Assembly (NCBI GenBank): GCA_903933715.1
Contig: CAIZLD010000076.1
Location: 1-41,945 of the forward strand
Length of the DNA: 41,945 bases
From: an uncultured Spartobacteria bacterium
GTDB taxonomy: Bacteria; Verrucomicrobiota; Verrucomicrobiia; Chthoniobacterales; Chthoniobacteraceae
Direction: 5' to 3'
The notes below the pieces were generated by a model. The model was not told the origin of the DNA and did no database searches. It saw only the letters and a program-made list of their open reading frames with translations. Position 1 is the stretch's first letter, and each line of letters begins with the position of its first letter. Shown here piece after piece: positions 5,682 to 30,723 of this stretch. A program made the position numbers and the translations under genes.

Positions 5682-7112
5682 TTAAAAGCGGAAGTAAATG
5701 AACGGGTTATAGGTGCCGGCCGAAAGACAGGCCAACGCCAGAATGAAAGCCGCCATCAGCCCGGTGTTGACGGCGCTTTCCACGGCCAGCCGTCCCGCCG
5801 CGTTTTGAGGGATTTCGCAAAAGCGCCGGGCAAACCGGGTCACCCACGGGGTGGAGCCGATCACTCCGGCAACGAGCGCAAGCTGGACATCCCGCGTCAG
5901 GAACATGGCGGCGAAATTCTCGGTCGCCCCGTCGGTGATGCCGATCATCGCCCGCAGAAAACGGCTGGCGTGAACCGGCGAATCGGCCCGGAAGAAGACC
6001 CAGCCCACCATCACAACCAATACGGCATAAAGATGACCCACCCAGGGAGGCAAAGTCTCGATCCGGCGCAGAAACCCTTTGCCTTCCAACACCAGAAACA
6101 GCCCGTGGTAGAGCCCCCAGATGATGAAGGTCCAACTGGCCCCATGCCAAAGACCGCAGAGGAAGAACACCGTCACCAAATTGAAATATTGGCGACGCGG
6201 CGTGACCCGGTTGCCGCCCATCGGGATGTACAGGTAATCGCGGAACCAGGTGGAAAGGGAGATGTGCCACCGCCGCCAAAACTCTTTGATGGAGCGGGAT
6301 ATATACGGGTAGTTGAAATTCTCCGGGAATTGAAAGCCGAACATCCGCCCCAGCCCGATCGCCATGTCGGAGTAGCCGGAAAAATCAAAGTAAAGTTGCA
6401 GGGTGTAAGCGGTGATCCCAAGCCAGGCCGCCCCCGGCGAAAGCGAGGTGGGCGTGGCGTTGAAGATCCGATCCGCCGGACCGGCGAGGGTGTTCGCAAT
6501 GAGCACTTTTTTTCCAAAGCCAACGAGGAACCGGCGCATACCGGAGTGAAATAACAGCAGGTTGACGCTGCGGATTCCAAACTGGTGCGCCACATGATGA
6601 AAACGCAGAATCGGCCCGGCGATCAACTGCGGGAAAAGCGTGACGTAGAGGGCCACTTTGACGAAGTTTTTTTGCCCCCGGACATCCTCCCGGTAGACGT
6701 CGATAACGTAGGAAAGGGCGTGAAAGGTGAAAAACGAGACGCCGATCGGGAGATGCACCGGGTCCAAATGGACCGGCGTGAGCTTCAGGGGAACCAGAAC
6801 GGCGTTGAGAATAACGACAAAGAAATTGGCGTATTTGCACGCCCCCAGCAGCCCCAGGTTGGTCACGACCGCCAGAACCATGGTCGCTTTCATTCCCGGC
6901 CGCCCCCGGAACCGCTCGATCAGAAGCCCGTAGACGTAGTTCATCGTGATCGAAGCGATCATGACGACGGTAAAGATCCGCTCGCCCCAGGCGTAAAAAA
7001 GCAGACTCGCCACCAACAGCCACAAGTTCCAGAGCGCCTTGGGCAGGAGAAAATAAATCCCCAGCACAATCGGTAAAAACAGGAATAAAAAAACCGGTGA
7101 ACTGAAAACCAT
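5682..7112 (-). CDS. MBOAT family O-acyltransferase (AlgI-like)
   Basis: Polytopic membrane O-acyltransferase of 476 residues. It opens with a hydrophobic segment (VFLFLFLPIVLGIYFLLP) and has many further membrane spans. The family core LPIGVSFFTFHALSYVIDVY lies near residues 111-130. The catalytic-histidine region FFLCGLWHGASWTFIIWG, followed by LYHG, lies near residues 316-337 and matches the AlgI arrangement. It is expected to move acyl (probably acetyl) groups across the inner membrane to its SGNH partner encoded immediately downstream. It starts 44 bases after the MnmC-like gene, so it may sit at the end of the purH-to-algJ-like run. The window holds a second, non-identical MBOAT at 12148. 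Confidence 0.93.
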   Translation of the reverse strand: MVFSSPVFLFLFLPIVLGIYFLLPKALWNLWLLVASLLFYAWGERIFTVVMIASITMNYVYGLLIERFRGRPGMKATMVLAVVTNLGLLGACKYANFFVVILNAVLVPLKLTPVHLDPVHLPIGVSFFTFHALSYVIDVYREDVRGQKNFVKVALYVTLFPQLIAGPILRFHHVAHQFGIRSVNLLLFHSGMRRFLVGFGKKVLIANTLAGPADRIFNATPTSLSPGAAWLGITAYTLQLYFDFSGYSDMAIGLGRMFGFQFPENFNYPYISRSIKEFWRRWHISLSTWFRDYLYIPMGGNRVTPRRQYFNLVTVFFLCGLWHGASWTFIIWGLYHGLFLVLEGKGFLRRIETLPPWVGHLYAVLVVMVGWVFFRADSPVHASRFLRAMIGITDGATENFAAMFLTRDVQLALVAGVIGSTPWVTRFARRFCEIPQNAAGRLAVESAVNTGLMAAFILALACLSAGTYNPFIYFRF

Positions 7113-12034: not shown

Positions 12035-12147
12035 GGAAGGGTTAAAACCGTAAAGGAGCAGCCGGGCGCGGTCAATTCGGAACCATCGACGCGGAAAAGC
12101 CATTGCGCAGGAAGAAGCCTTATGCCACCCTGCATCTTTACCCTAAC

Positions 12148-13584
12148 ATGAATTTCGCCGAAATCCGATTCTGGCAACTGCTCTGCGGGGGACTCGCGGT
12201 TATCTTTTTTTTGCGGTTCTGGGTTAAAAACCCCACGGAACGCTTTGATAAACTGGCGCTCCTTTCTCTGGGACTATTTTTGCTGATGTGCGTCAGCGGG
12301 ATCACATTCCTCATTTTCAGCGTCGTCGCGGTGGGGAGCTATTTTGGGCTAAAGTGGATTCTGGAAATTCACGGACGCGCCCCCCTGCGCTATCTTTTTG
12401 TCCTGATCCCGCTCCAACTCCTGCCGCTGCTTTTTTACAAATACGGCGACTTCTTTCTGCACACGGTACTCCGCTGGAACCTGACCTCCGCACATCTTTG
12501 GCTTAACGGTGTTACGGGGCGCGATATTCCGGCTTTGCACGATCTGATTATCCCCGTCGGCATTTCGTTTTACACTTTCCAGAAGGTGGCCTTTGTGGTT
12601 GATACGCTGGTTTTCAAGGAACCGCTACCCCGTTTTCTCGATTACATGAACTTTGCCGGGTTTTTCCCGCAAATCGTGGCGGGGCCCATTGAGCGCCGCA
12701 GTAACCTGCTGCCCCAGATGGAGTGTTTCCGATTTCAGTGGAACCGGGAGAATATTGACGAGGGGGCGAGCTGGATCGCCGTGGGGCTGTTTTTTAAGTG
12801 CTGCCTGGCCGATAATCTGGCAATTTTTTTTAATCCCGCCTCGGCGAGCAACCCCTACCTGATCTGGGCGGCTAATCTGCTCTTCGGGCTGCGGATCTAT
12901 TACGATTTCGCCGGATACAGCATGGTGGCGCTGGGAATTGCGCGCTGCCTTGGGGTCCGGCTCATGCTGAATTTTGCCAGCCCATATTGCTCCCTGAGCG
13001 CGACGGAGTTTTGGCGGCGATGGCACATTTCGTTGAGCCAATGGTTCCGGGATTACCTCTACATCCCCCTTGGGGGAGGACGCGTGACCTACTGGGCCTT
13101 TAACATCGCGCTGGTCTTCATTGTTTCGGGGCTATGGCACGGAGCCGGGTGGGGTTTTGTCCTTTGGGGAGCGATGCATGGGTTATTTTTGATCCTCAAT
13201 CGACTGGCGCACCCCGTCATCAAAACGCCACCTTTGGTCGGGTGGATGTTGACGACACTAGCCGCATTTTGCGCGTGGCTCTGCTTTTATGAGACGCGCA
13301 CCGGGGTGCTGTTTCTCAAATTAAAGACCCTTTTTACGCCGGGCGCCTACAATTTTGCGGCGCTTCGCGCCGTGCCCGCACAATGGACTGGGCCGGATTC
13401 ATTCGCGTTGTGCTGCTTTCTTCTCATGGCAACGATTGTTTTTGTCATGGAATGGCTTTCATTGGCCAAAAAGGACGAGCCTTATTACTTTTTGCGACGG
13501 CCCGTCGTCGTGCCGATTCTTGTTTTCCTGACCGTTTTGCTGGCTCCTCAAACCAACAATGGATTCATCTATTTTGCCTTCTAA
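12148..13584 (+). CDS. MBOAT family O-acyltransferase, second copy
   Basis: Polytopic membrane acyltransferase of 478 residues and the first gene of the plus-strand polysaccharide locus. The family core LIIPVGISFYTFQKVAFVVD lies near residues 133-152. FWRRWHISLSQWFRDYLYIP and the catalytic histidine stretch FIVSGLWHGAGWGFVLWG, followed by AMHG, lie near residues 288-345. It is clearly diverged from the MBOAT at 5682 outside these motifs. The ATG at 12148 (MNFAEIRF) is preferred over a frame start at 12103 because the extra residues are polar and non-conserved. It overlaps the next gene by 26 bases, implying co-translation with the SGNH-like partner. Confidence 0.92.
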   Translation: MNFAEIRFWQLLCGGLAVIFFLRFWVKNPTERFDKLALLSLGLFLLMCVSGITFLIFSVVAVGSYFGLKWILEIHGRAPLRYLFVLIPLQLLPLLFYKYGDFFLHTVLRWNLTSAHLWLNGVTGRDIPALHDLIIPVGISFYTFQKVAFVVDTLVFKEPLPRFLDYMNFAGFFPQIVAGPIERRSNLLPQMECFRFQWNRENIDEGASWIAVGLFFKCCLADNLAIFFNPASASNPYLIWAANLLFGLRIYYDFAGYSMVALGIARCLGVRLMLNFASPYCSLSATEFWRRWHISLSQWFRDYLYIPLGGGRVTYWAFNIALVFIVSGLWHGAGWGFVLWGAMHGLFLILNRLAHPVIKTPPLVGWMLTTLAAFCAWLCFYETRTGVLFLKLKTLFTPGAYNFAALRAVPAQWTGPDSFALCCFLLMATIVFVMEWLSLAKKDEPYYFLRRPVVVPILVFLTVLLAPQTNNGFIYFAF

Positions 13585-14644
13585 GACCCGTATTCCATGG
13601 GGTGCCGTGCGATTGCTCGCCTCCGCTGCAATCGCGTTCCTAGTTTCTTTAGCTTATCTGTACTATGGAAACCCGGAAATCCGTTTTTATAAAAAAGCAA
13701 TCCAGGTTAAGCAAGATTGGGCGCATAAGCTCACACGGGAATATGGCAACAAGACGGTAATCTTTGGGGGGTCAAGTTGCGCCTTTTCCATTGATGGAGA
13801 GCGTTTGCTTGAAAAGCACCAAATTCCGGCAGTCAACATGGGGCTTCATGCCGGGATGAGACCCACGATGCTCACCAATTTCGCCCTCTCTGAAACCCGG
13901 CCAGGCGACACTTTGATCGTTGCGATAGAACCTGATTTGCTAACCAAACCGCTGGCTCCCCCTCCGTTGGCGGTTCAACTTAGCTATGCCGTGCACTCCC
14001 CTACCTGGCTTGAGGCTCCCTGGCTGGATCAACCAGTTTCCAAAGTATCCTCAATATTCGCCCTGCGCCCCAGCGGTTATCTTCTTTTTGTCATGTTGGG
14101 CAAAGCCATGAAGGGGCTTCCTCCCTACCGCTACAATCCCGATTATATTCATCCCAGTGGGTGGATGACCACTCCCGACCGGCGACTCATCGGGTTTGGC
14201 AGACAAGAAAATTTCCGACCCGTGGCGCTCTCGCACGAAGCAGAAAATCTTCTTGGATGGCTGAGAGACTGGTCCACTGCCCATCGTGTGCGCGTCGCTT
14301 ATTCCATGCCGTGGATGTGCGTTGACCCCCGGGATGTCACCGTTATCCAGAGAAGCAATGCAGCCTTCCTCCAGCAGGTTGCCCAATACCTGCCGGTGTT
14401 GAAAGACCCCCATCTGGGAGCCAGCACAACTCGCGAATATTTTGCAGACACCATCAATCATCTCACCCCAGAAGGGTCAGCCTTGCGCACCGACAGCCTT
14501 GCTCAACAGTTGCAAGCATGGGATGTGTGGAAAAATCAGGAATTGGAAATTCTCTCCACAAAGCTCGCTGGGGAGAATCAAACGGCGCAAACAAACCAGC
14601 CAGCGCAATCCGGCCTTTCCGAAAAATTGATACAATCCAAGTGA
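13559..14644 (+). CDS. SGNH/GDSL-like membrane-anchored partner of MBOAT
   Basis: Protein of 361 residues with an N-terminal membrane anchor (about residues 16-36, VRLLASAAIAFLVSLAYLYY) and a periplasm-facing domain. A degenerate GDSL-type block VIFGGSSCAFSIDGERL near residues 68-84 supplies a candidate nucleophilic serine. YFADTINHLTPEGS near residue 301 supplies candidate Asp and His. It therefore resembles SGNH-fold acyltransferases/esterases that work with MBOAT proteins. Similarity to the AlgJ-like protein at 4524 is only in architecture. It overlaps the MBOAT gene upstream and ends inside the flippase start codon (GTGA), so all three are coupled. A direct role in O-acetylation is inferred from context. 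Confidence 0.7.
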   Translation: MDSSILPSKTRIPWGAVRLLASAAIAFLVSLAYLYYGNPEIRFYKKAIQVKQDWAHKLTREYGNKTVIFGGSSCAFSIDGERLLEKHQIPAVNMGLHAGMRPTMLTNFALSETRPGDTLIVAIEPDLLTKPLAPPPLAVQLSYAVHSPTWLEAPWLDQPVSKVSSIFALRPSGYLLFVMLGKAMKGLPPYRYNPDYIHPSGWMTTPDRRLIGFGRQENFRPVALSHEAENLLGWLRDWSTAHRVRVAYSMPWMCVDPRDVTVIQRSNAAFLQQVAQYLPVLKDPHLGASTTREYFADTINHLTPEGSALRTDSLAQQLQAWDVWKNQELEILSTKLAGENQTAQTNQPAQSGLSEKLIQSK

Positions 14645-16002
14645 TCTCTAGAACAATAGGGTGGTTAAACCGGAGCCCCGGAAAGGCAGGAGCTATCGCC
14701 GGGTGGTATCAACAGTTCGCCAGCGGCATAATCACTCTGGCGCTCATCCCACTGATCGTTCGAAAACTCAGCCCTGAAAATTCCGGCCTCTGGTTTTCCT
14801 TTCAGAGTCTCGCAAATATCGTCGGGCTTACGGATTTCGGCGTCGGTTTTGTGCTGGCACGACAAGTGGCCTTTTCCATCGCCGCAACGGGAGACAAGCC
14901 CCCCGGAGATTTCCTCGATATTCCCCGGGGGTGGGAAGGAATCAACCGTTTATATGCTGCTTGCCGTGGCATTTTTAGCCGGATTATATTCATCGCCATC
15001 GGGATCCTCATTTTCCTGCACGAGATGGTTTTGCCTCACACCAAGCTGAGTGGCCAAAATACCCTGGCGACAACCGTTGCCTTCTATCTCTTGGGAGCCT
15101 CGACCATCATTTTTATCAAAACTCGCCAATACCAAGCCCTTCTCGACGGACTGGGGCGGATGTATATGGGACGGTTTCTGGCAGGTTGCTATCAATTTCT
15201 CTCAGGAATAATGGTAATGATAGCGCTGCTCGCCGGGGGAGGCCTGCTCTCGATGGCTTTCAGCCTTTTTGCGCTCTCTGCCGTGTTCCTCATCGTGCTT
15301 CGCCGAATCTGCTATCGAGTTTCGGAAGCGCGGCTCGACTGGGGGGTGAAGCCGGACCCCGCACTCATCAAGAGCATGTTAAAAGTCTCGGCTCCTATGG
15401 GGATCGTCAGCATCAGCGGTTATTGCGTCTCCGCGATTCAGTCCCCGCTAATCGGCTCGATTCTCGGGCCCGCCTTTGTGGCCCCCTACTACGCCGCGCA
15501 AAAAATCGGGGACATGCTGTGTTCCGCAGTTTCCCAACTCATTAGTCCACAGCTCCCCCTATTTACCGCCTCCCTCGCTGCCGGAAATATAACGGCGGCA
15601 TTGATCAGGCTCAAACGGACGATTGCGGTAGTGTCTACCGTGGCTTTTTTGACGAGCACCAGTTTTTTCCTGTTCTCGCCAGTATTTGCTAATTTTTGGC
15701 TAGGAAAAGGACATTACATCAACAGCGTTACCTTGGGATGGCTTGCCCTTAACTACTTCCTGGGCATTGCCTCCGTTGCATGGGGACAATTTGTGTTTGC
15801 TTCAGGTATCAATCCATTTATGTGGACAACCATATTGATGGGAGCCCTAAACCTTCTTGGATGTTTTGTATTAGGAACTAAATTCGGGACAGCAGGTATA
15901 GCAGCCAGCTTGGTTCTTGCGGGACTAATGTCGAACACGATCTACGCACCCTACCGCGGTATATTGCTTTTAAAGCAGTTAACCCGCAAAATAACCCAGT
16001 GA
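14641..16002 (+). CDS. Wzx-like polysaccharide flippase (MOP superfamily)
   Basis: Multi-span inner-membrane protein of about 453 residues, similar in layout to oligosaccharide flippases (Wzx/RfbX type) that move lipid-linked repeat units to the periplasm. The N-terminal segment WYQQFASGIITLALIPLIVRK, followed by SPENSGLWFSFQSLANIVGL and a LTDFGVGFVLARQ motif, is typical. About a dozen hydrophobic segments follow. The GTG start at 14641 overlaps the previous stop (GTGA). A longer frame to 14518 would overlap the SGNH gene by 127 bases and lacks hydrophobic sequence. It forms a set with the Wzy/ligase-like gene at 18805 and the glycosyltransferases. Confidence 0.85.
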   Translation: MISRTIGWLNRSPGKAGAIAGWYQQFASGIITLALIPLIVRKLSPENSGLWFSFQSLANIVGLTDFGVGFVLARQVAFSIAATGDKPPGDFLDIPRGWEGINRLYAACRGIFSRIIFIAIGILIFLHEMVLPHTKLSGQNTLATTVAFYLLGASTIIFIKTRQYQALLDGLGRMYMGRFLAGCYQFLSGIMVMIALLAGGGLLSMAFSLFALSAVFLIVLRRICYRVSEARLDWGVKPDPALIKSMLKVSAPMGIVSISGYCVSAIQSPLIGSILGPAFVAPYYAAQKIGDMLCSAVSQLISPQLPLFTASLAAGNITAALIRLKRTIAVVSTVAFLTSTSFFLFSPVFANFWLGKGHYINSVTLGWLALNYFLGIASVAWGQFVFASGINPFMWTTILMGALNLLGCFVLGTKFGTAGIAASLVLAGLMSNTIYAPYRGILLLKQLTRKITQ

Positions 16003-17655: not shown

Positions 17656-18405
17656 TTATTTTGGAAACCAAAGATAACGCTGATCGATTAAGCGATTCAG
17701 GGATCGAAGGGTTTGTTTGACGAGCCATTGACCTCGGCTTGACGGGAATGCATCCCCTGTTGAACCGGAAATCGCCAAAAGCCTTGCCTGATGAGCAAAA
17801 GCCTTTACCTCATTGCGGGGGACATTGCAAAGAGTCCGAAACATCATGCGTTCGACCCAATCCCCATTGCGATCATCACATTTTTTATAAAGCCCGATGA
17901 GCCATTGTTTATAAAATGCCGTAGTTGGTGAAAATATATGCGTGCGCGCTAATTTTGAGCGTGGAATTTGATCGATCAAAAGGCTGGTCTCCCGCCTGCT
18001 GTGGCATTCTGATAAAAAGTCGGCCATGTTAAGGAACTGGTAACGCCCCGTCGATTTCAGCCACCGATCAGGAAGACTCGCCTCTGATTCTATCCAGGTG
18101 TCGAGCATTTCAAATTCCTGATACCCTTTACCGCGTTCCGGTGTTTTGGACGGTTCAAATTGCCGAACATGAAAGCGCTCCGTTTCGCGAAAATCAGGAT
18201 CCTCCTGCAACGGATAGCAAGAGTTCTCCAAAAAATAGACTGGGGCAAACTTTAGGTAAAAGCGAATGGATCGAAGATACTCTGCCCGCCGAGCCTCCGC
18301 ATTGGAAATGGGGGTTACCACTCCATTGGGAATAATGGTCCCCGTAAGAACAATGGGTATTGTCTCTGCGCGGTAGCTGCTGGCCGATTGGTTTGAGTGA
18401 TGCAT
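17656..18405 (-). CDS. uncharacterised capsule-cluster family protein
   Basis: Soluble 249-residue protein on the opposite strand to its neighbours. The pattern IPIVLTGTIIPNG, then RAEYLRSIRFYLKFAPVYFLE with NS next, then GKGYQEFEMLD and LKSTGRYQFLN, matches, from memory, an uncharacterised protein group found in capsule and O-antigen clusters of Bacteroidetes and others. That group is sometimes suspected to be glycosyltransferases. There is no signal peptide, membrane span or recognisable catalytic motif beyond these blocks. It is convergent with the GT10-like gene (45 bases apart) and divergent from the Wzy-like gene across 399 bases. Function is unassigned. Confidence 0.72.
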   Translation of the reverse strand: MHHSNQSASSYRAETIPIVLTGTIIPNGVVTPISNAEARRAEYLRSIRFYLKFAPVYFLENSCYPLQEDPDFRETERFHVRQFEPSKTPERGKGYQEFEMLDTWIESEASLPDRWLKSTGRYQFLNMADFLSECHSRRETSLLIDQIPRSKLARTHIFSPTTAFYKQWLIGLYKKCDDRNGDWVERMMFRTLCNVPRNEVKAFAHQARLLAISGSTGDAFPSSRGQWLVKQTLRSLNRLIDQRYLWFPK

Positions 18406-21346: not shown

Positions 21347-22165
21347 ATGAGCACCATTTCCAACCCGGGTAAACTGCCCGTCATTAGCATTATTACGCCG
21401 AGCTACAATCAGGCGGATTACCTGGAGCAGACGATCTTGAGCGTTTTGAATCAGGATTATCCCGCGATCGAGTACATCATCATTGATGGCGGTTCCACGG
21501 ATGGTTCGGTGGAAATCATTAAAAAATATGAGAGTCGGCTGGCCTACTGGCAAAGCAAGCCCGACAAAGGGCAATCCGACGCGATTGCCACCGGCTTTGC
21601 AAAAGCCACTGGAGATGTAATCGCCTGGCTTAACTCGGACGACTATTACGAAGAAGGCGCATTGAAACGCGCGGGGGAATTCTACGCTCAACATCCGGAT
21701 ACCGTAATGGTGTATGGCGATTATTATAACCTCTATCCCGATGGCTCCAAAACCTTGAAGCCCAAGATATCCTTCGACTTCAAAGCGTGTCTTTACGCTT
21801 ACATGATGGTCGCCCAGCAATCGTCCTTCTTCAGCCGGGATGCCTACTTAAAGATCGGAGGGCTAAACCGGGAACTCCATTACGCGATGGACTTCGACCT
21901 GTTTCTGCGGTTGGGCCACGCTTTTCCGGGGCGCATTTATCATATTAAAGAGGCGCTCTCCACGTTCCGGCTGCACGAGGAATGCAAATCGTGGTCTCAG
22001 AAAGAAAAGTTCAGCCCTGAAATCAAAGCCGTTCGGAGGCAATTCACCCAAGAACCCCGTGCGTTGCTCAAGCTCAAAAACAAATTCTATCTCGCAAAGG
22101 TTATCCTGATGTTTCTTTTGCAACGGGGGGTAATTCCCAAACCCAAAGATAAAAAACGCTTTTGA
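21347..22165 (+). CDS. family 2 glycosyltransferase
   Basis: Second GT2 enzyme of 272 residues. VISIITPSYNQADYLEQTIL, YIIIDGGSTDGSVEIIKKYE, SKPDKGQSDAIATGFAKATG and the metal-binding WLNSDD (near residue 93) are canonical. MDFDLFLRLGHAFPG is the usual ED-like catalytic region of this subfamily. It ends in a basic tail (RGVIPKPKDKKRF). The stop overlaps the next ATG (TGATG). It is a paralogue of the preceding gene by motif but clearly diverged. It probably adds a neighbouring sugar in the same repeat unit. Confidence 0.93.
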   Translation: MSTISNPGKLPVISIITPSYNQADYLEQTILSVLNQDYPAIEYIIIDGGSTDGSVEIIKKYESRLAYWQSKPDKGQSDAIATGFAKATGDVIAWLNSDDYYEEGALKRAGEFYAQHPDTVMVYGDYYNLYPDGSKTLKPKISFDFKACLYAYMMVAQQSSFFSRDAYLKIGGLNRELHYAMDFDLFLRLGHAFPGRIYHIKEALSTFRLHEECKSWSQKEKFSPEIKAVRRQFTQEPRALLKLKNKFYLAKVILMFLLQRGVIPKPKDKKRF

Positions 22166-23334
22166 TGAGCGAAACACCCTCTTCCACTCCCGCGAAACCT
22201 CTCATCCGCCTCACCGCCGAGCAGCGGAGTACGCTTGAGAGCTTGCTTGCGGGCCGAACCGACCGGTTGATCTTGAGGAAAGAAGACCCATTTCTGTCGG
22301 TAGAACAAGGCAGCGATGTCGACATCCTCTGTCGTTTTCCCAACAAAGCCAAACAGGAGATCCTTAATCGCCTGGGCGCGCCGGTTTGGATAGCGCGCCG
22401 ATCCTATGTCACCAGTTTCTTTTACGATTGGTGTCACCTGGACATCATGCCTTCGGTCGAATGGTGGGGAGCCTCGTTTCTATCCAATGAACGCCTGTTC
22501 GGCGCATCCCGAGCGGGGCAATTTGTAATCCGGCGGCCCTCGCTGGCTGACGATGCCCTCATCGTCTGGTTTTCCAGCATCCTTTGGGGAGGTTTTTTTA
22601 AAGAAACCTACCGTCCGGCGATTCTGGAAGCCGTTGCGCAAGATCCCATAGGAATCGAGTCAGGGTTAACCGAGGCATTCGGTCCGGCACTCGGCAATGA
22701 ATTGTGGTGCATGGCTCAATCGGAACGATTCCAGGATGCGGTGCTGTTAAAATCTCGACTGCGCAAAACGCTATGGCTCCGGCAATTCACAAGACAACCG
22801 GCGAGAACACTTTGGAGCCTCGCCCGATTCTTCTGGGCGGAACTTTGCCTGACCCTGCGGCCTCCGATGCCGATGATCGCCTTTTTCATGACGGAGGGAT
22901 ACGATGTACAAAGTTTGCTCAGAGAACTCACGGCGCGCCCCTCACGAACCTTGCTGGGATTCAGTTCGATTCCATATAACCAACAAACACTCAAGCCCTG
23001 GGTATATTGGAGACGCATTGCAAGAACCCGCGCCAAAAACAAGATCGTGGTGATCACTCAAACCTCCGCTGCCTTTCTTCAGAATGCTTTAAATCAACGT
23101 CAAAGGCCGTTGAACTTCCTAAACAAAATTTTCTCTGGGGGAACCCCCCGGCCGGACTTGTTTTTTGTGATCATGAAAAACGCTCAGGATCACGAAGGCT
23201 TGGCTGTGATAGAGCGACTTTCCGGTGCTTGCATTCTGGATGGGAGCAAATCTCCGCAGGAACTTGCAGACATCGTCCTTTTAGAAATCCATAAGCTCTT
23301 GAAAGCGCGCACCTCGGAAAGTTATGTTCTCTAA
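22165..23334 (+). CDS. nucleotidyltransferase-like protein with a degenerate thymidylate-kinase-like domain
   Basis: Unusual 389-residue protein. The N-terminal part has a polymerase-beta-like nucleotidyltransferase signature, EQGSDVDILCR near residues 46-56, with a later carboxylate in WCHLDIMP near 88-95. The C-terminal part, from about residue 234, starts MIAFFMTEGYDVQSLLREL, which aligns in position with the P-loop strand of thymidylate kinases but lacks GxxGxGK. It continues with TPRPDLFFVIMKN and ends in a helix-rich ILDGSKSPQELADIVLLEI, as those kinases do. The kinase half is thus predicted to be inactive in ATP binding. ATG at 22165 overlaps the previous stop. A gene with an intact P-loop of similar type lies at 24608. 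Function unknown. Confidence 0.6.
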   Translation: MSETPSSTPAKPLIRLTAEQRSTLESLLAGRTDRLILRKEDPFLSVEQGSDVDILCRFPNKAKQEILNRLGAPVWIARRSYVTSFFYDWCHLDIMPSVEWWGASFLSNERLFGASRAGQFVIRRPSLADDALIVWFSSILWGGFFKETYRPAILEAVAQDPIGIESGLTEAFGPALGNELWCMAQSERFQDAVLLKSRLRKTLWLRQFTRQPARTLWSLARFFWAELCLTLRPPMPMIAFFMTEGYDVQSLLRELTARPSRTLLGFSSIPYNQQTLKPWVYWRRIARTRAKNKIVVITQTSAAFLQNALNQRQRPLNFLNKIFSGGTPRPDLFFVIMKNAQDHEGLAVIERLSGACILDGSKSPQELADIVLLEIHKLLKARTSESYVL

Positions 23335-23347
23335 CCCACTTCCCTGC

Positions 23348-24604
23348 ATGCCATCCCGGTTGAAAATCCTCCTCTCCGCCTATGCCTGCGAACCGGGCAA
23401 GGGTTCGGAACCCGGCGTGGGCTGGAGTTGGGCGGAACAGATGAGCCGCCTTCATGAGGTTTGGGTCATCACGCGTTCCAACAACCAAGCGGCTATCGAG
23501 GGATCGGGACTGGAGTGGGTCCAAAACGTCCATTGGGTCTATTACGACCCGCCCGCCTGGCTCACTTTTTGGAAAAAGGGGAACCGAGGCGTGCAAGTTT
23601 TTTATTATTTGTGGCAAATCGGTGCGTGGCTCAAAGCCCGAAAACTGTTGCGCCAAACCGCTTTTGATCTCGCCCATCATGTTACATTCGGTAATTACTG
23701 GCTGCCCTCCTGGATCGGGCTGCTGCCCATTCCGTTTGTCTTCGGCCCGGTCGGTGGCGGCGAAGTAACCCCGGAACCACTCTTGTCGAGCCTCACCCCC
23801 AAGCAACAACGCTACGAACGGCTCCGACGCTTTCTCCAAAAAATTTTCCGCTTTGATCCGGTGCAGCATTGTGTGATGCGGCGGGCGGCCGTGATCTCGG
23901 CCACAGACGAAACGGGCGAAAGAGTCCAAGCCTGGTTTCGACCCACGTTTCATTCGGTCCAAGCGCAATGCGGGCTCTCGGCACCAGAACTGGCCATGTT
24001 CGGCGCATTGAAACCAAAGTCAGACGGCCCTTTCCGCCTCATCAGCATGGGGCGCCTGGTGCATTGGAAAGGCTACCACCTGAGCCTCATGGCATTTGCG
24101 AGGCTGCTTGAAACATTCCCAGAAGCCGAGTATTGGCTGGCCAGCGACGGCCCGGAGCGGCCGACTTTGGAAGCGTTGGCGGCACAACTAGGCTGCGGCG
24201 ACCAAGTCAAATTCTGGGGAAGGCTGCCTAAATTGGATGAGTTATATGCCAAGCTGGAACAATCCGATGTCTTGGTGCATCCCGCCATGCACGAGGCTTT
24301 CGGCGTGGCGTGCATGGAGTCGATGGCATCGGGGCGGCCTGTCATTTGCTTGAACCGTGGCGGCCCCGCATTGCTCGTGACTCCCGAAACCGGCATTGCG
24401 GTCGAACCGGGCACGGTCGAAGAAACCGTTGCACGACTGGCCGGTGCCATGTTGTGCCTGGCTCAAGATTCACCTTTACGGCAACAAATGGGGCAGAACG
24501 CCCGTATCCGAATCGCACACTGTTTTTCTTGGGAAAAAATGGCGGAAAAGATGAATGAAGTGTACCAGCAAATGGTGCGTTCCGGTCTTTCCGAGAATCA
24601 TTGA
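23348..24604 (+). CDS. family 4-type glycosyltransferase
   Basis: GT-B fold retaining glycosyltransferase of about 418 residues. The N-terminal ILLSAYACEPGKGSEPGVGW is characteristic of a GT4 subgroup in exopolysaccharide clusters. The C-terminal donor domain has RLISMGRLVHWKGYHLSLMA and the E-x7-E block HEAFGVACMESMASGRPVIC near residues 312-331. ATG at 23348 places the start next to the conserved first strand; an in-frame ATG at 23324 would overlap the previous gene by 11 bases and is also possible. It belongs to the tightly packed series running to 27179. Donor unknown. Confidence 0.92.
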   Translation: MPSRLKILLSAYACEPGKGSEPGVGWSWAEQMSRLHEVWVITRSNNQAAIEGSGLEWVQNVHWVYYDPPAWLTFWKKGNRGVQVFYYLWQIGAWLKARKLLRQTAFDLAHHVTFGNYWLPSWIGLLPIPFVFGPVGGGEVTPEPLLSSLTPKQQRYERLRRFLQKIFRFDPVQHCVMRRAAVISATDETGERVQAWFRPTFHSVQAQCGLSAPELAMFGALKPKSDGPFRLISMGRLVHWKGYHLSLMAFARLLETFPEAEYWLASDGPERPTLEALAAQLGCGDQVKFWGRLPKLDELYAKLEQSDVLVHPAMHEAFGVACMESMASGRPVICLNRGGPALLVTPETGIAVEPGTVEETVARLAGAMLCLAQDSPLRQQMGQNARIRIAHCFSWEKMAEKMNEVYQQMVRSGLSENH

Positions 24605-24607
24605 GCC

Positions 24608-25237
24608 ATGACTAAAACTAACAATCGCGGTTGTTGGACGGTCCTTATCGGCCCTGACGGGGTTGGCAAAACGAGTGTTGCCCAAGGGATCTTCCCCAAA
24701 GTGGCCGATCGATTCGACTCCTTGCGCTACCACCATTGGATCGCTCCGTGGACGCAGCCGCTCCGCTCCGATGTCCCGCCCGGGGGCGGCCGTTTTGAAC
24801 CCGGCCCGTGCCGATGCGGATTTTTTGGAAATCTCATCTCGCTGGCGCGCCTCGCCCGCAACATCGTGCGAGCCTGGCTTGGCTACGTGCTGCGCATCCG
24901 GCCTCACTTGCGCCGGAGCCGCCTGGTTCTGGGCGACCGGTATCTCTTCAACTACCTCCTTGATCCGCAAAGCGTCCGCTACGGAGCCGCGCCTTTTTGG
25001 GTCCGGCTGGCGCTGCGGCTGGTTCCAAAACCGGATGTCGTCATCAGCCTCGTCGCCGATCCGGAGGTGATCCACGCCCGCAAAGACGAGCTAAGCGTAA
25101 CAGAAATCGCCGATCGCCTCGCTCGCGCCCGCGAACTGAGAAGCCTCGGCTTCAACCTGGTTGAGGTTTCCGCCGACGCCCCGCTCTCCGCCGTCATTGA
25201 AAACGCCGCGGCCGTCATCTTAAATTCCCGTGCATGA
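24608..25237 (+). CDS. thymidylate kinase-like P-loop protein
   Basis: Small 209-residue nucleotide/sugar-kinase-like P-loop protein. The Walker A motif LIGPDGVGKTSVAQGIFP lies at residues 13-30, a DRY segment (LVLGDRYLFNYLLDP) near residue 108, and PKPDVVISLVADPEVIHARK near 140-159 fits the LID-proximal region of thymidylate kinases. It is not expected to be the housekeeping Tmk: the motif spacing differs and it sits within a polysaccharide locus, three bases after a GT4 and overlapping an APH-like kinase by ATGA. Such kinase-like proteins in exopolysaccharide clusters are, to my knowledge, uncharacterised. Substrate unknown. Confidence 0.75.
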   Translation: MTKTNNRGCWTVLIGPDGVGKTSVAQGIFPKVADRFDSLRYHHWIAPWTQPLRSDVPPGGGRFEPGPCRCGFFGNLISLARLARNIVRAWLGYVLRIRPHLRRSRLVLGDRYLFNYLLDPQSVRYGAAPFWVRLALRLVPKPDVVISLVADPEVIHARKDELSVTEIADRLARARELRSLGFNLVEVSADAPLSAVIENAAAVILNSRA

Positions 25238-26328
25238 CCGCGTTCAATCCCCTCCCCAAATCCGACGCGTGGCGTTCGCTGTTTCAAAATGGCGAGACGT
25301 GTTGCGAGGTGGTCGTGATCAGGAAATTTGGTCACCCGCTATTGGTGTTGGCGGGGAAAGCCCGTTTTTCCGCTCAATCTCTGGCACTCTACCCGGCCCA
25401 AACTTTCAAAGCGCGACGATTGCGGGATTTGCTCTGCCTCGCGTTGCGGCTCCGGTTGCTCCCGCTGTTTTTTTCCGAAGAACTGCGCTTTGACCCGGCT
25501 GAATCGTTCACGCAAAAAATCCTCGCCAAAAACGACGGGGCTGCCGATTTCGCCATCCTCTGCGGCAATCCCCTTACCGAGTGGCAGCGGTTTATGATTC
25601 TGACCGGCGGGAGCGGGAACCGCGTGGTGATTAAAGCGGGGGTTTCGAAAGCCGCCCAAGAGGTGATTGCGCGGGAAGTCCGTATTTTGGATGAAAACCA
25701 AAATGCGCCGTATCTTCAAAACATCTCCGAGCGGTTCCAAACCGGGAATGTTGCGGCATTTAGCACCGCGTTTGTGGCGGGAGATTCCCCGGGGCTGGAG
25801 TCGGCAAACGAAATCGCTTCGATATTGGGAGCCTGGATTCTGGACGGAGAGGTGGCTTTGGGAGACCTTCCTGCCTGGCAGCGTTTGCAAGCCGCCGCCC
25901 CCGATTTGGCTCCAAGCCTCAAAGAGATGGGAACGACCCGGGTTGCCGTGACGCTGGCTCATGGTGATTTCGCGCCGTGGAATATCAAAGTGACACCCCG
26001 AGGCTGGGTGGTTTTGGATTGGGAACAGGGAGAAAATCCGGGCGTCCCCGGCTGGGATTGGTTTCATTTTCTCATCCAATCTCAACGGCTGGTTTTACAT
26101 CTTTCCCCGGAGCAACTGCTCTCCCGGCTCCAAGAGTTGATCGCTTCGCCGCTCTTTCAAGACTACGCCAAAAGGGCAAGGATCGACGGAATGGAATGGA
26201 AACTTCTGGCCGCGTATTTGGAATATATGGTTTTGGTGACCCCGCCCAAGGAAGAACTCGAGCCGTTGAAGGCATTGGGCCGGCTTGTTGCGAATCACCT
26301 GTCCCGGCTCTCTTTCTGCCCCCCATGA
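25234..26328 (+). CDS. aminoglycoside phosphotransferase (APH)-like kinase
   Basis: Protein-kinase-fold phosphotransferase of 364 residues. The C-lobe has the Brenner-type catalytic block LAHGDFAPWNIKV near residues 241-253 (Asp and Asn present), followed by WVVLDWEQGENPGVPGWDW (metal-binding Asp near residue 261). An upstream GSGNRVVIKAG near residue 130 could supply the ATP-binding lysine. The first ~120 residues are specific to this protein. The APH superfamily includes choline, homoserine, sugar and aminoglycoside kinases; antibiotic resistance is unlikely here given the glycan cluster. ATGA overlaps at both ends couple it to the P-loop kinase and to the following GT2. Confidence 0.78.
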   Translation: MTAFNPLPKSDAWRSLFQNGETCCEVVVIRKFGHPLLVLAGKARFSAQSLALYPAQTFKARRLRDLLCLALRLRLLPLFFSEELRFDPAESFTQKILAKNDGAADFAILCGNPLTEWQRFMILTGGSGNRVVIKAGVSKAAQEVIAREVRILDENQNAPYLQNISERFQTGNVAAFSTAFVAGDSPGLESANEIASILGAWILDGEVALGDLPAWQRLQAAAPDLAPSLKEMGTTRVAVTLAHGDFAPWNIKVTPRGWVVLDWEQGENPGVPGWDWFHFLIQSQRLVLHLSPEQLLSRLQELIASPLFQDYAKRARIDGMEWKLLAAYLEYMVLVTPPKEELEPLKALGRLVANHLSRLSFCPP

Positions 26329-27179
26329 CCTCCCCCCTGAAGTTCACGATTGTGACGCCCAGTTACCGGCAGTTGCGCTGGCTCAAGCTGTGCGCCGCTT
26401 CCGTGGAGGATCAGCGGGACGAAGTGGAAGTCGAGCACCTCATCCAGGATGCCCGGAGCGGCCCGGAACTGGCCGACTGGGTCCGATCCAACACCCACGC
26501 CCGGCTCTTTGTTGAAAGCGATTCGGGAATGTACGACGCCATCAATCGTGGGTTCCAAAAAGCAACCGGCGACATCGTGGCATGGCTCAATTGTGATGAA
26601 CAATATTTTCCGGGCGCCCTGGCGCAAGTGGCGGCGTTTTTTGAAGCACACCCCGCAATTGATGTTTTGTTTGGGGACACAGTCTTGATCGACGAAGCGG
26701 GCTCGCTGCTCTCCTATCGCCGGGCAATCCTCCCCACCCCGCTCCACCTCAGGCTCTCGCACCGGGATGCCCTCTCCTGTGCTACGTTTGTCCGGCGTTC
26801 GGTGATTGAGAGGGGCTTTTGGTTGAACCCCGAATGGAAAGTGGTTGCCGACGCGATTTGGATCGCCGACCTGCTCCGGGCCAAAGTGCGAATGGCGGTG
26901 CTGCCCAAACCGCTGGCCGCTTTCACGCTGACCCGGGAGAACTTGAGCCAGACAAACCTGGCCCGTGAAGAAAGCCTGCGGTGGCGCGAGCAATCCACCT
27001 CTCCCTGGATGCGGAGCTTACGGCTCCCGATGATCGTGTGGCACCGTCTGCGCAAGCTGTTCCATGGCGCTTACGCGAGCCGGGATTTCGACACCCGGCT
27101 TTATACTCAATCCTCGAATCTTGCCCGCGTCTCCGTCAGCGCCCGGAATATCCCGTTTAGCTGGCCGCGTCTGCCGTAA
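26325..27179 (+). CDS. family 2 glycosyltransferase
   Basis: GT-A enzyme of 284 residues and last gene of the plus-strand locus. FTIVTPSYRQLRWLKLCAAS, VESDSGMYDAINRGFQKATG and the metal-site variant WLNCDE (near residue 87) are clear, with WKVVADAIWIADLLRAKV in the catalytic region. The DSGMYDAINRG form is that of the WcaA/WbbD-like GT2 subgroup seen in many O-antigen clusters. ATG at 26325 overlaps the APH-like stop (ATGA). A repeat-filled 161-base gap separates it from the convergent three-domain glycosyltransferase. Confidence 0.92.
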   Translation: MTSPLKFTIVTPSYRQLRWLKLCAASVEDQRDEVEVEHLIQDARSGPELADWVRSNTHARLFVESDSGMYDAINRGFQKATGDIVAWLNCDEQYFPGALAQVAAFFEAHPAIDVLFGDTVLIDEAGSLLSYRRAILPTPLHLRLSHRDALSCATFVRRSVIERGFWLNPEWKVVADAIWIADLLRAKVRMAVLPKPLAAFTLTRENLSQTNLAREESLRWREQSTSPWMRSLRLPMIVWHRLRKLFHGAYASRDFDTRLYTQSSNLARVSVSARNIPFSWPRLP

Positions 27180-27340: not shown

Positions 27341-30300
27341 CTACGTTGAAATGTTTTGAATCGCAGCATGGAGCTTTGCGACATAGCGAGATTCCGAGAA
27401 ATTGTCTTCAAAATGGCTTCGCAAGTTTTCGAATAAATCGGAGCAAAGCAAAGCGTGGATCGCCGTCGCAATCTCGCACGGAGAATGCAGCGACACCATT
27501 GCCGGATAATTCACCGGCATCACTTCGGTAATCGCGGCGCATCTCGTCGTTACAATCGGCAGGCCGTAAGCCATCGCCTCCAGTAAAACCAGGCCAAAAC
27601 TTTCCCAATGGCTTGGAAACACGAAGCAATCGCCCTGACGCAAAAACGCCTCCTTCTCTCCGGCAGACAAAAACCCGTGATAGCCCACGATGGAAGCACC
27701 CTGATTGAGCAGATCGGGCTGCAAACAACGCTGCTCAAAACGGGCCTGCTCCTGTCCATTGACAAATTCTCCGGCGACCTCCATGCGGAGGCAGATCGCC
27801 GAACCTTGCAATTGCTGATTTAAAAGGGCGACGCCATCCAAGGCATCGAAAACACCCTTCGGTTCGGTGCAGCGAGCCATGTAAACAACCCTGAAGCATT
27901 CCGGGTCCCCACCCGCCTGTGCTTTCTCTTCAATGGAAAGTTCACTCCCGTTCAACAACTTTCTCCGGGCGGCAAGCCGCGCCATCAATCTGGGAAGAAC
28001 CGATTCACGGAAGCGTGGGCATGGATCGGGAATGGCGTTGGCAACAATTTCCACATGGCGACTATGGAACTGCAGGGCATCACAGATCGTGGAGTTCGTC
28101 ACGGCGATCGAGAGCGTCGGTTTGGAAAGCAAAAGCCGGGTGATCCACCGTTCCAACCGGTTGCCTTCGCGGTCCAGCCATTCCCCAAGACCGACCGCAT
28201 GCCAATGCAGCACAAGCTGCTTAAAAAACGGGCGGCATAGCGCCATCACAATCCAGTCGCGGTACAGGGCGTTTCGCTTCCCGGGAGCCGGGACATAATA
28301 AAACGTGCGCACGCCATAACGGAACCGGCACGCGATTGCTTCCATGCAATAGCGCAACAACTGGAACACTTTGCCCAGGCGGATCGAACCGATGTCTTCC
28401 ATGTCGTCGGAGACGCGGCAGTTGACGTGGTAGCAGGCGATTTTGCGCTCCGCGTTTCTCGGCCCGGTCCGGGCATCGCCCCCCAAACCGTCCAGCATCA
28501 GTTTCACCATGAAGCTCTGGCCGTGATGCGGTGGGGGGGTGTGCGCAAAAACCAGCAGTTTCGCCGGTTCCGTGGCGTCCTTCCCGGCCGGGTGCCCGAG
28601 CACCGCCCCTTTCCAATAGGCCAGCAACCCTTCGGGCAATCCGCTCAAACCCCAGTTTTTGAGGTGCCGCCAGAGATTGCCCGGCAGGCACCGGAAGATG
28701 CGCCGTCCATGGGGCAACCGGCACCCGATGTAGGCGACGTTGTGCAGCATGGCGATCTGCTTCCGGCGTTCCGCCGCAATCGCCTCGGGCGTGAACGGCC
28801 CGGAAAAACAGAAATGCGTGAGTTGTGCGTCCGGCACAAAGATCGCCTTCCGATCGGCGCTGACGCGGAGGCTGAACTCGAAATCCTCCCCCCGAATCTG
28901 GAAATCGGTGCGGTGCAATCCGACCTCTTCGAACGCTTCCCGCGTGATTAGCAACGAAACGCCGGTCGCCCAGGAGAACCGGACTGGCTTCGGGCCGAAT
29001 TTCTCCAAATAGGCTTCCGGAGTGCGGATTTTCCCTTTCCTCAAACCATCAAACGGACCCGCTTCCAAAAGGCCGGGGAACCAGCCGATTTCTCCCGTGG
29101 ACCAGGTAATCATGGGGCAGGCGAGGTCTGCCCCCTCCTCGCGCATGGCGGCGAGCAGCCGCTCCAAAGCGCCCGGCGCGAGGCAAATGTCGTCATCCAT
29201 CATCCAAAGATGGCTGATGCGGTTGCCGTACTGTTCCAAGGCATATTTTTCCCCTAAGGCGAGCCCGCCCCCGCAGCTCAGGTTTTTGCCCGGAACCAGC
29301 CGCGTGATCTCCAGGCGGGCGCGGGCTTGCTCGACGACGGCGGCCGTCGCCGGATCGTCGGCGTTGTCCACCACCAGTACGGCCAGCGGGGTCGCTTCCG
29401 GCTCCAGCGAAGCGAGCATCCGCTCCAAATGTTCGGCCCGGCGGTAAGTGGCCGTGATGAGCACGACGAGCGGTTTTGGAACGGCTGCGGGCGCTGAGGA
29501 GCCGCCCAGCAGCTTGGAAGGCAGCACTCCCTTGGTAACCAGATTGCGAATCTGGTCCCGAATTTCCGGCCAGACGGCCGATGGCCGCAAACGGGTCAGG
29601 CAATAAGGCTCGGCGAAGCGGCAATAATCAAAGCAGGGACGGTAACGGCAGAGGTCCCGCATCACGACCTGGTGGATTGCTCCCGATGGCCGGAACCAAT
29701 CGGCATTCGTTGGCCCGAACAGGACTATCGTGGGTCGGCCACAAGCGGCGGCCAGGTGGGCGGGCCCGGAATCGTTGCCCAGGAGCAAATCGGCGCGGCC
29801 CAGAACATCAACCAGCTCGGTGAGCGTCAAATCGTGAAGCACGGTGTCGGCTGCGGAAGCGAGTGGCGAGCCGTAGCCGTCCGGGTCCGGGATCAAAATC
29901 AAATGGAAAGTAAACTCCTGGCGCAGCCGCTGGATTAACTCTTCAAAATAAGCGACGGGCCAGCGCCGGACGGGGATTCGCGCCCCGGCGTGCAGCACCA
30001 AAACCGGCACGCTCAATTCCGCAAAAAGGGTGTCGATCCGGATGGAGCGGTAAGCCTCATGGCGCAGCCTCGGCTGGACCTCCTTCATACCCGAGAGACC
30101 CATGGCAACGGCGAGATCACGCCAGTCCTCCACTTTGTGCTGGTTAGAGCCGCCGGTACGCTGGACCGCGTCGGTGAGAAGCAGCCCGCTGCCGCGATGG
30201 GAAAATCCAATGCGCCTGCGGGCGCCAATCAAAGCCATGAGCAGATGATCCCGCGGATCGTCGCGCGTGCTCACCGCCACATCGTATTGTTCCTTGCGGA

Positions 30301-30553
30301 GGTGCCAAAGGAGGCGCAAAAAGGCGCGCCAGTTCCAATTCCAGATGTGATATTTGTGATGAAACTTCGTCCAACCGGCCTCGAAGAAAAAGAAGCGGAT
30401 CGAAGGGAAGGTCGGTTCCAGCAGCGGCTTGGCATGGCTTTTTCCGACGAGATGCACCTCGTCCCCTTCCTGGAGCGCCCGTTGGAGCAGGGCGGTTGAA
30501 AAAGTAAGGTCTCCGAGTCCCCAGAGCTCGAGGACGAGGATTTTTCGTTTCAT
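27341..30553 (-). CDS. three-domain glycosyltransferase fusion (GT9-GT2-GT4)
   Basis: A single open frame of about 1070 residues with three glycosyltransferase modules. Residues 1-345 are heptosyltransferase/GT9-like: MKRKILVLELWGLGDLTFST at the start and LLGNDSGPAHLAAACGRPTI near 256. Residues 360-650 are GT2-like: LVVLITATYRRAEHLERMLA, VVDNADD and the metal site WMMDDDI near 455. Residues 664-1070 are GT4-like: LVFAHTPPPHHGQ, RVVYMARCTEPKGVF and the E-x7-E stretch WESFGLVLLEAMAYGLPIVT near 995. Each module keeps its main catalytic blocks, so the protein could make three successive linkages. It is convergent with the main locus. ATG at 30553 is preferred to a frame start at 30622. No stop or frameshift is evident at the junctions. 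Confidence 0.9.
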   Translation of the reverse strand: MKRKILVLELWGLGDLTFSTALLQRALQEGDEVHLVGKSHAKPLLEPTFPSIRFFFFEAGWTKFHHKYHIWNWNWRAFLRLLWHLRKEQYDVAVSTRDDPRDHLLMALIGARRRIGFSHRGSGLLLTDAVQRTGGSNQHKVEDWRDLAVAMGLSGMKEVQPRLRHEAYRSIRIDTLFAELSVPVLVLHAGARIPVRRWPVAYFEELIQRLRQEFTFHLILIPDPDGYGSPLASAADTVLHDLTLTELVDVLGRADLLLGNDSGPAHLAAACGRPTIVLFGPTNADWFRPSGAIHQVVMRDLCRYRPCFDYCRFAEPYCLTRLRPSAVWPEIRDQIRNLVTKGVLPSKLLGGSSAPAAVPKPLVVLITATYRRAEHLERMLASLEPEATPLAVLVVDNADDPATAAVVEQARARLEITRLVPGKNLSCGGGLALGEKYALEQYGNRISHLWMMDDDICLAPGALERLLAAMREEGADLACPMITWSTGEIGWFPGLLEAGPFDGLRKGKIRTPEAYLEKFGPKPVRFSWATGVSLLITREAFEEVGLHRTDFQIRGEDFEFSLRVSADRKAIFVPDAQLTHFCFSGPFTPEAIAAERRKQIAMLHNVAYIGCRLPHGRRIFRCLPGNLWRHLKNWGLSGLPEGLLAYWKGAVLGHPAGKDATEPAKLLVFAHTPPPHHGQSFMVKLMLDGLGGDARTGPRNAERKIACYHVNCRVSDDMEDIGSIRLGKVFQLLRYCMEAIACRFRYGVRTFYYVPAPGKRNALYRDWIVMALCRPFFKQLVLHWHAVGLGEWLDREGNRLERWITRLLLSKPTLSIAVTNSTICDALQFHSRHVEIVANAIPDPCPRFRESVLPRLMARLAARRKLLNGSELSIEEKAQAGGDPECFRVVYMARCTEPKGVFDALDGVALLNQQLQGSAICLRMEVAGEFVNGQEQARFEQRCLQPDLLNQGASIVGYHGFLSAGEKEAFLRQGDCFVFPSHWESFGLVLLEAMAYGLPIVTTRCAAITEVMPVNYPAMVSLHSPCEIATAIHALLCSDLFENLRSHFEDNFSESRYVAKLHAAIQNIST

Positions 30554-30723
30554 TCGGAAGCATGCTACCGCAACCGGGCAAAAAAATCGAGCGGCATTTG
30601 CGACCGGGCTGATCCCGGGCACGACCGGGAAAGAATTGCCCAGATCCCGGCGGCTTACCGGTAAACCAATCTATTAAACGAATCGTAAGGCCAAAGCGGT
30701 CCGGTGGTCCGAAACTTGAATTA

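Follow-up and report, generated by a model that had tools for sequence, protein, structure and literature searches.

A conserved kinase, nucleotidyltransferase and glycosyltransferase module with a predicted pseudokinase in bacterial polysaccharide loci

Gene layout of the locus

The exopolysaccharide (EPS) cluster described here is located in the window, a 41,945-nucleotide stretch of DNA (contig CAIZLD010000076.1) from an uncultured Spartobacteria bacterium that belongs to the same family as Chthoniobacter flavus Ellin428. Alongside numerous glycosyltransferases and O-acyltransferases, the cluster encodes a flippase-like protein (14518-16002). Four of its genes are the subject of this study (Table 1). 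P0001 combines a nucleotidyltransferase (NTase) with a thymidylate kinase (TMK)-like domain, P0004 is a glycosyltransferase of family 4 (GT4), P0002 is a stand-alone TMK-like P-loop kinase and P0003 is a kinase of the aminoglycoside phosphotransferase (APH) fold. A sequence-only reading had placed the three kinase-like proteins within four tightly coupled genes, interleaved with a GT4 and GT2 glycosyltransferases, which agrees with the coordinates and overlaps. The ATG of P0001 is overlapped by the stop codon of an upstream GT2 gene, the GT4 gene starts inside P0001, the gap between the GT4 stop and P0002 is 3 bp, and ATGA overlaps are found at the starts of P0003 and of the GT2 gene that follows it. 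The four module genes are translationally coupled.

Table 1. Features of the module in the window.
Feature	Position	Strand	Remark
NTase-pseudokinase protein P0001, 389 residues	22165..23334	+	NTase half is residues 1-233
Predicted pseudokinase domain of P0001, residues 234-389, thymidylate-kinase fold	22864..23331	+	
Degenerate Walker A MTEGYDVQS, P0001 residues 242-250	22888..22914	+	GPDGSGKSS in relatives
GT4 glycosyltransferase P0004	23324..24604	+	homologs adjoin the module in many phyla
Stand-alone TMK-like P-loop kinase P0002	24608..25237	+	motifs intact ("live")
APH-fold kinase P0003	25234..26328	+	catalytic residues intact
GT2 glycosyltransferase, overlaps the APH gene	26325..27179	+	by reading of the sequence, a similar GT2 is fused to an APH kinase in L055

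A conserved module in polysaccharide loci

The DxD-type NTase, the TMK-like P-loop kinase, the APH-fold kinase and the GT4 almost certainly constitute one conserved module of polysaccharide loci, since their adjacency is conserved and they are repeatedly fused. Related loci were collected by a profile search of genome contigs with the APH alignment; 80 were kept, ranked by APH similarity alone. A member of the TMK-like kinase family lies within ~8 kb of the APH gene in 52 of these 80 loci, and in 40 the two are at most 1 kb apart or part of the same chain. A GT4 of the P0004 kind is also present in 35 of the 52 kinase-bearing loci and is the module's most constant companion. Co-occurrence elsewhere, which the sequence-only reading had named as a check, is confirmed: the three families accompany each other in many other polysaccharide loci and in some of them share one polypeptide.

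The fusions come in several arrangements. NTase, kinase and APH follow each other in single chains from Chthoniobacteraceae (L062), Tepidisphaeraceae (L107) and Binataceae (L110), while the order is APH-NTase-kinase in L094 and L102 (Bacteroidota and Balneolota). Further single chains are NTase-kinase-GT4 (L066, L070), APH-GT2 (L055) and kinase-APH (L104). In six more loci (L086, L087, L101, L106, L108, L111) kinase and APH share one chain, and the region between them has no NTase profile match. The trimodular L062 protein (765 residues) gives an AlphaFold model with a pLDDT of 92.3, in which the kinase part resembles TMK at a Z-score of 19.2. That the same parts are fused in different orders is strong evidence for a shared pathway.

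By the submitters' labels, the module is found in about ten phyla: Verrucomicrobiota, Planctomycetota, Acidobacteriota, Bacteroidota, Rhodothermota/Balneolota, Pseudomonadota, Thermodesulfobacteriota, Nitrospirota, Binatota and Actinomycetota. Most of these genomes are metagenome bins, whose taxon labels may be wrong. Two bins are labelled Prosthecobacter debontii (L039) and Akkermansia muciniphila (L041); L039 matches G031, a genome from the same family as Chthoniobacter, and its label is therefore probably wrong. The spread is patchy, with the APH protein found at E < 1e-10 in only 6 of 289 genomes that evenly sample the phylum of the source genome. Two alphaproteobacterial plasmids carry the module in EPS loci; their records are well annotated, yet the module parts bear the names 'hypothetical protein' and 'phosphotransferase'. 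In two alphaproteobacterial loci, dTDP-rhamnose genes adjoin the module. Other neighbours are GT4s, Wzy_C proteins and sugar transferases. A phage origin of the module was considered and rejected, as no match was found in phages.

The nucleotidyltransferase and pseudokinase halves of P0001

P0001 itself has no match among the Pfam and NCBIfam models, and a single-sequence search of the genome contigs gave no confirmed match. The relatives retrieved by homology search are fused proteins in which one half is NTase-like and the other an intact P-loop kinase. In the P0001-family alignment, which includes homologs from 28 other loci, 27 of 29 members match PF02223 (Thymidylate_kin). PF14907 (NTP_transf_5), a family of pol-beta-type NTases, is matched by 7 of the 29 (best 1.2e-5), P0001 not being one of them.

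The closest homologs (L066, L070, L078 and L075; BLASTP E-values down to 2e-27) align over nearly the full length of P0001 and retain the Walker A, DR and LID motifs. P0001 has lost all three. The degenerate Walker A aligns without gaps to that of the four homologs, the DR motif SDRY is replaced by ITQT, and the LID stretch xRKxE is deleted. In a profile comparison, residues 226-389 match 64 rows of the kinase family over the full domain (E 3e-7), while four control stretches stay below 1% probability. The AlphaFold model, built from 29 sequences, has a pLDDT of 85.4 and a pTM of 0.83. Residues 234-379 of this model match thymidylate kinases in Foldseek (best 6.4e-4) and in VIA (Z 11.3, root mean square deviation 3.5, 141 residues aligned), and TMKs make up 49 of the first 50 rows of structural matches. 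The sequence-only reading, which had seen in P0001 an NTase-like protein with a TMK-like half that lacks its P-loop, is thus borne out by alignment and by predicted structure: residues 234-389 have the fold of a P-loop kinase and are not an unrelated domain. We regard the second half of P0001 as very probably a pseudokinase with a TMK fold.

In the NTase half, the acidic residues D51 and D53 of the DxD motif are invariant in the alignment and D93 nearly so, and P0001 has all three. With the NTase acids retained and the kinase motifs lost, the first half of P0001 is probably active and the second half probably inactive.

An NTase-kinase fusion in another locus (L034:8400-9998, minus strand) is the mirror image of P0001, as its NTase has lost catalytic Asp residues (SAVDC, LAV) and its kinase is intact; a P0003-like APH is absent from the L034 stretch. 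Five family members (L035, L036, L046, L050, L079) carry an extra domain of 110-215 residues with a (L/Y)(F/Y)KGG motif between NTase and kinase. Neither this insert nor the C-terminal parts of L070_3624 and L075_4654 qualified as further pseudokinases (profile probability < 3% in each case).

The intact kinases P0002 and P0003

P0002 was read from the sequence as a separate P-loop kinase of similar type, and it has all motifs intact: GPDGVGKTS (Walker A), GDRY (DR motif) and ARKDEL (LID). With the kinase half of the NTase-kinase fusion in Chthoniobacter flavus it shares 53% identity. A TMK fold was computed for the P0001 pseudokinase domain and the L062 live kinase, and extends to P0002 through this 53% identity only.

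Module kinases resemble thymidylate kinases (TIGR00041, PF02223) in their fold, with the Z-scores given above for the pseudokinase and the live module kinase, in a P-loop of the form GxDGxGK(S/T) and in the DR motif. They differ in that they score below the curated TIGR00041 cut-off of 83.25 bits (P0002 23.1 bits, trimodular L062 36.2 bits), are fused to NTase, APH or GT4 domains, and are additional to the cell's own tmk. Where TMKs have SSxAYQ on the acceptor side, the module kinase family has DxxVDPxRYR; in a profile alignment to solved TMKs, DRyyyDllvDprRyR is paired with DRFVLSTIAYQGYG. An ordinary tmk is located elsewhere in the genome, on contig C17, and scores above the cut-off (144.6 bits). 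Because of the low score, the tmk on C17 and the replaced acceptor motif, P0002 is by its sequence not the cell's dTMP kinase. The separate tmk supports the earlier view that none of the three proteins fits housekeeping nucleotide metabolism. A published paper on a P. putida TMK (PMC10653934) is about a phage-like deoxynucleoside monophosphate kinase.

P0003 has the hallmarks of an APH-fold kinase (HGDFAPWN, DWE, VVIKAG), in line with its initial assignment, and they are invariant or nearly so across nine homologs. Invariant positions in the APH alignment are H243, G244, D245, N250, D262 and K134, which correspond to the catalytic HGDxxxxN, the Mg-binding Asp and the ATP-site Lys. P0003 scores 22.2 bits against PF01636 (APH), for which the gathering cut-off is 23.2 bits; its relatives in L089 (34.1 bits) and L107 (28.7 bits) exceed this value.

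Seven APH kinases (L057, L060, L061, L063, L065, L067, L069) end in a hydrophobic, probably multi-span membrane domain, and their fetched flanks contain no NTase or kinase. In L083 (5847-8435), an APH kinase follows a hydrophobic, flippase-looking half. We rejected its identification as a Wzx flippase, as the hydrophobic segments are accompanied by no Pfam, NCBIfam or significant pairwise match, and class this half only as a membrane-like domain by sequence.

Dead and live kinases in the trees

Kinase-dead domains were also found in two Acidobacteriaceae genomes. In G603 (L089), an APH-NTase chain has at its end a domain that is kinase-like but has lost all motifs (profile E 7e-7), and a separate live kinase adjoins this chain. 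In G604, an NTase-pseudokinase gene lies beside a GT4 (L121; profile E 3e-10), and a separate live kinase is encoded on a different contig (L109). The NTase tree places P0001 and the two proteins from Acidobacteriaceae on different branches, with good support. Each of them lies nested within a group whose kinases are live, and the starred branches force three changes. These different branches indicate that kinase death beside a separate live kinase is a repeated event.

The NTase of P0001 groups with fusions of the Verrucomicrobiales type (support 99/95). In the kinase tree, P0002 groups with the Chthoniobacter flavus kinase (95/77), apart from the relatives of P0001. The pair in the window therefore combines two branches of the kinase family, and these separate placements led us to reject the fission of a single ancestral NTase-kinase gene into P0001 and P0002.

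Other features of the cluster

On the minus strand of the window, an open reading frame (ORF) of 1093 residues (27341-30622) consists of three fused glycosyltransferases (GT9, GT2, GT4), and similar parts are apparently separate genes in Chthoniobacter flavus (L024). Two MBOAT O-acyltransferases lie on one flank, in regions that resemble AlgI/AlgJ-type acylation pairs (4524-7112, minus strand, and 12103-14644, plus strand). One of them adjoins an AlgX-like SGNH protein, the other a possible SGNH partner that matches no Pfam model. An orphan ORF of 249 residues (17656-18405, minus strand) sits within the cluster on the opposite strand and has no significant match in Pfam or NCBIfam.

Discussion

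The presence of a dead and a live kinase beside an NTase poses the question of how these proteins might work together. The NTase-fused kinase domain has lost its three motifs, and we propose that a stand-alone kinase of another branch took over the activity. As TMKs are homodimers, the dead domain would most likely persist because it docks or heterodimerises with P0002 and so tethers this live kinase to the NTase. We consider it an even bet that the P0001 pseudokinase is such a heteromeric partner of P0002. The same combination of NTase-pseudokinase and live kinase in two Acidobacteriaceae, on another branch, indirectly supports this idea, which the sequence-only reading had already put forward.

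In the proposed chemistry, the APH kinase would phosphorylate a hydroxyl group on a sugar or on a glycan linked to a lipid, and the TMK-like kinase would act on this or another phosphate. The NTase would transfer a nucleotidyl group, or a glycosyl group as proposed for PsmN, onto the phosphorylated unit. The resulting phosphate- or nucleotide-containing unit would be used by the GT4 and GT2 ahead of export. The neighbours point to polysaccharide assembly of the Wzx/Wzy type. Together with the precedent of pseudomycoidin, this leads us to favour serial phosphorylation and nucleotidyl or glycosyl transfer, with a lipid-linked unit or a building block of the glycan as acceptor, tentatively and at less than even odds. 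Taken as a whole, the explanation by module, pseudokinase partner and glycan chemistry is the best we can offer, with a probability of roughly 45%. Its widest form is an undescribed multi-phylum system whose two kinases and NTase share one substrate and build from it a new kind of glycan unit, linked through phosphate or nucleotide, and in which a dead TMK domain repeatedly evolved into the dedicated partner of a live one; this we hold as possible, though less likely than not.

Several observations weigh against our proposal. No kinase was found in the fetched flanks of 28 of the 80 APH relatives, some of which are cut by contig ends. Between strands 2 and 3, where TMKs have helices of the dimer interface, P0001 is ~60 residues shorter. 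The alignment behind its AlphaFold model is made up of live kinases and may favour that fold. No ortholog of the pseudokinase was present in the 40 family and 384 class genomes searched, and the P0001 branch in the kinase tree is very long (4.69 versus a median of 0.59).

The lost residues, the missing close orthologs and the long branch would also fit a relic, the main rival to a partner role. In that case, the fused kinase would have decayed once a stand-alone kinase had come in, and its functionless domain would still await deletion. The separate origin of the two kinases is consistent with this as well. However, the domain is in frame, complete and predicted with high confidence in most parts, and similar full-length dead domains with a separate live kinase occur in Acidobacteriaceae. 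We regard a relic as a serious contender that is nonetheless more probably wrong than right.

The close rival to serial chemistry on the glycan is donor synthesis. In this scenario, the kinases and the NTase would activate a free sugar or alcohol with a nucleotide and so supply the GT4 with its donor, by a salvage or dedicated route like those of LicA/LicC or HldE, and the polymer would keep no phosphate. The constancy of the GT4, which is sometimes fused to the NTase-kinase, speaks for such a route, and APH-fold kinases acting on sugars or choline are known. Yet the NTase is probably of the PF14907 kind and not of the fold of sugar-1-phosphate nucleotidyltransferases, and two kinases are one more than the route needs, so that we consider donor synthesis somewhat unlikely.

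Alternatively, the P-loop kinase could be a locus-borne dTMP or nucleoside monophosphate kinase that feeds nucleotide-sugar synthesis, for example of dTDP-rhamnose. The TMK fold, the P-loop and the adjoining dTDP-rhamnose genes in two loci are in keeping with this, but the score of P0002 (23 bits against a cut-off of 83), the replaced SSxAYQ motif and the cell's own tmk make it improbable, and the constant NTase and APH would be left unexplained. That the families are simply common in polysaccharide loci, where all of them are indeed found, and share no task is hardly tenable: in different phyla the parts are neighbours or fused, in more than one order, and the fusions already contradict it. 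With about one member per ~4-Mb genome, well under 1% of 16-kb stretches would be expected to contain one, as opposed to 52 of 80.

To return to the serial chemistry that we favour, its closest precedent is the lasso peptide pseudomycoidin, where PsmK phosphorylates and PsmN then adds a hexose on the phosphate of the same acceptor (PMC9266682). Both systems encode a kinase and an NTase-like enzyme together, and PsmN is likened to the module NTase by role. The acceptor is a peptide there, whereas the module has a polysaccharide context, a TMK-like kinase and an additional APH kinase and GT4. PsmK is HPr-kinase-like; the structural matches of the P0001 pseudokinase and the L062 kinase are TMKs. 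A comparable logic is found in LicA/LicC, HldE and similar kinase-nucleotidyltransferase pairs, which phosphorylate a building block of a glycan before they nucleotidylate it. LicA is also APH-like; these pairs have other NTase folds and no known TMK-like part. WbdD and the WaaP/KdkA-type kinases of O-antigen and lipopolysaccharide are protein-kinase/APH-like enzymes that phosphorylate glycans. By description they resemble P0003 as APH-like kinases in a glycan context, and we know of no NTase or TMK-like partner for them.

None of the curated models in Pfam and NCBIfam names the kinase-NTase-GT4 set, and no description of the module was found in the open full-text literature, subscription papers being outside the scope of this search. 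While the component folds are all known, their combination appears to be undescribed.

The occurrence of the same set across about ten phyla, from the cultured Chthoniobacter flavus to Bacteroidota and Rhodobacterales, suggests one unrecognised chemical step in surface polysaccharides. The repeated appearance of a kinase-dead copy beside a live one may offer a compact natural test of how pseudo-enzymes originate. Should this step decorate the polymer with a phosphodiester or a nucleotidyl group, a class of phosphorylated exopolysaccharides could be recognised in sequence data by the gene set.

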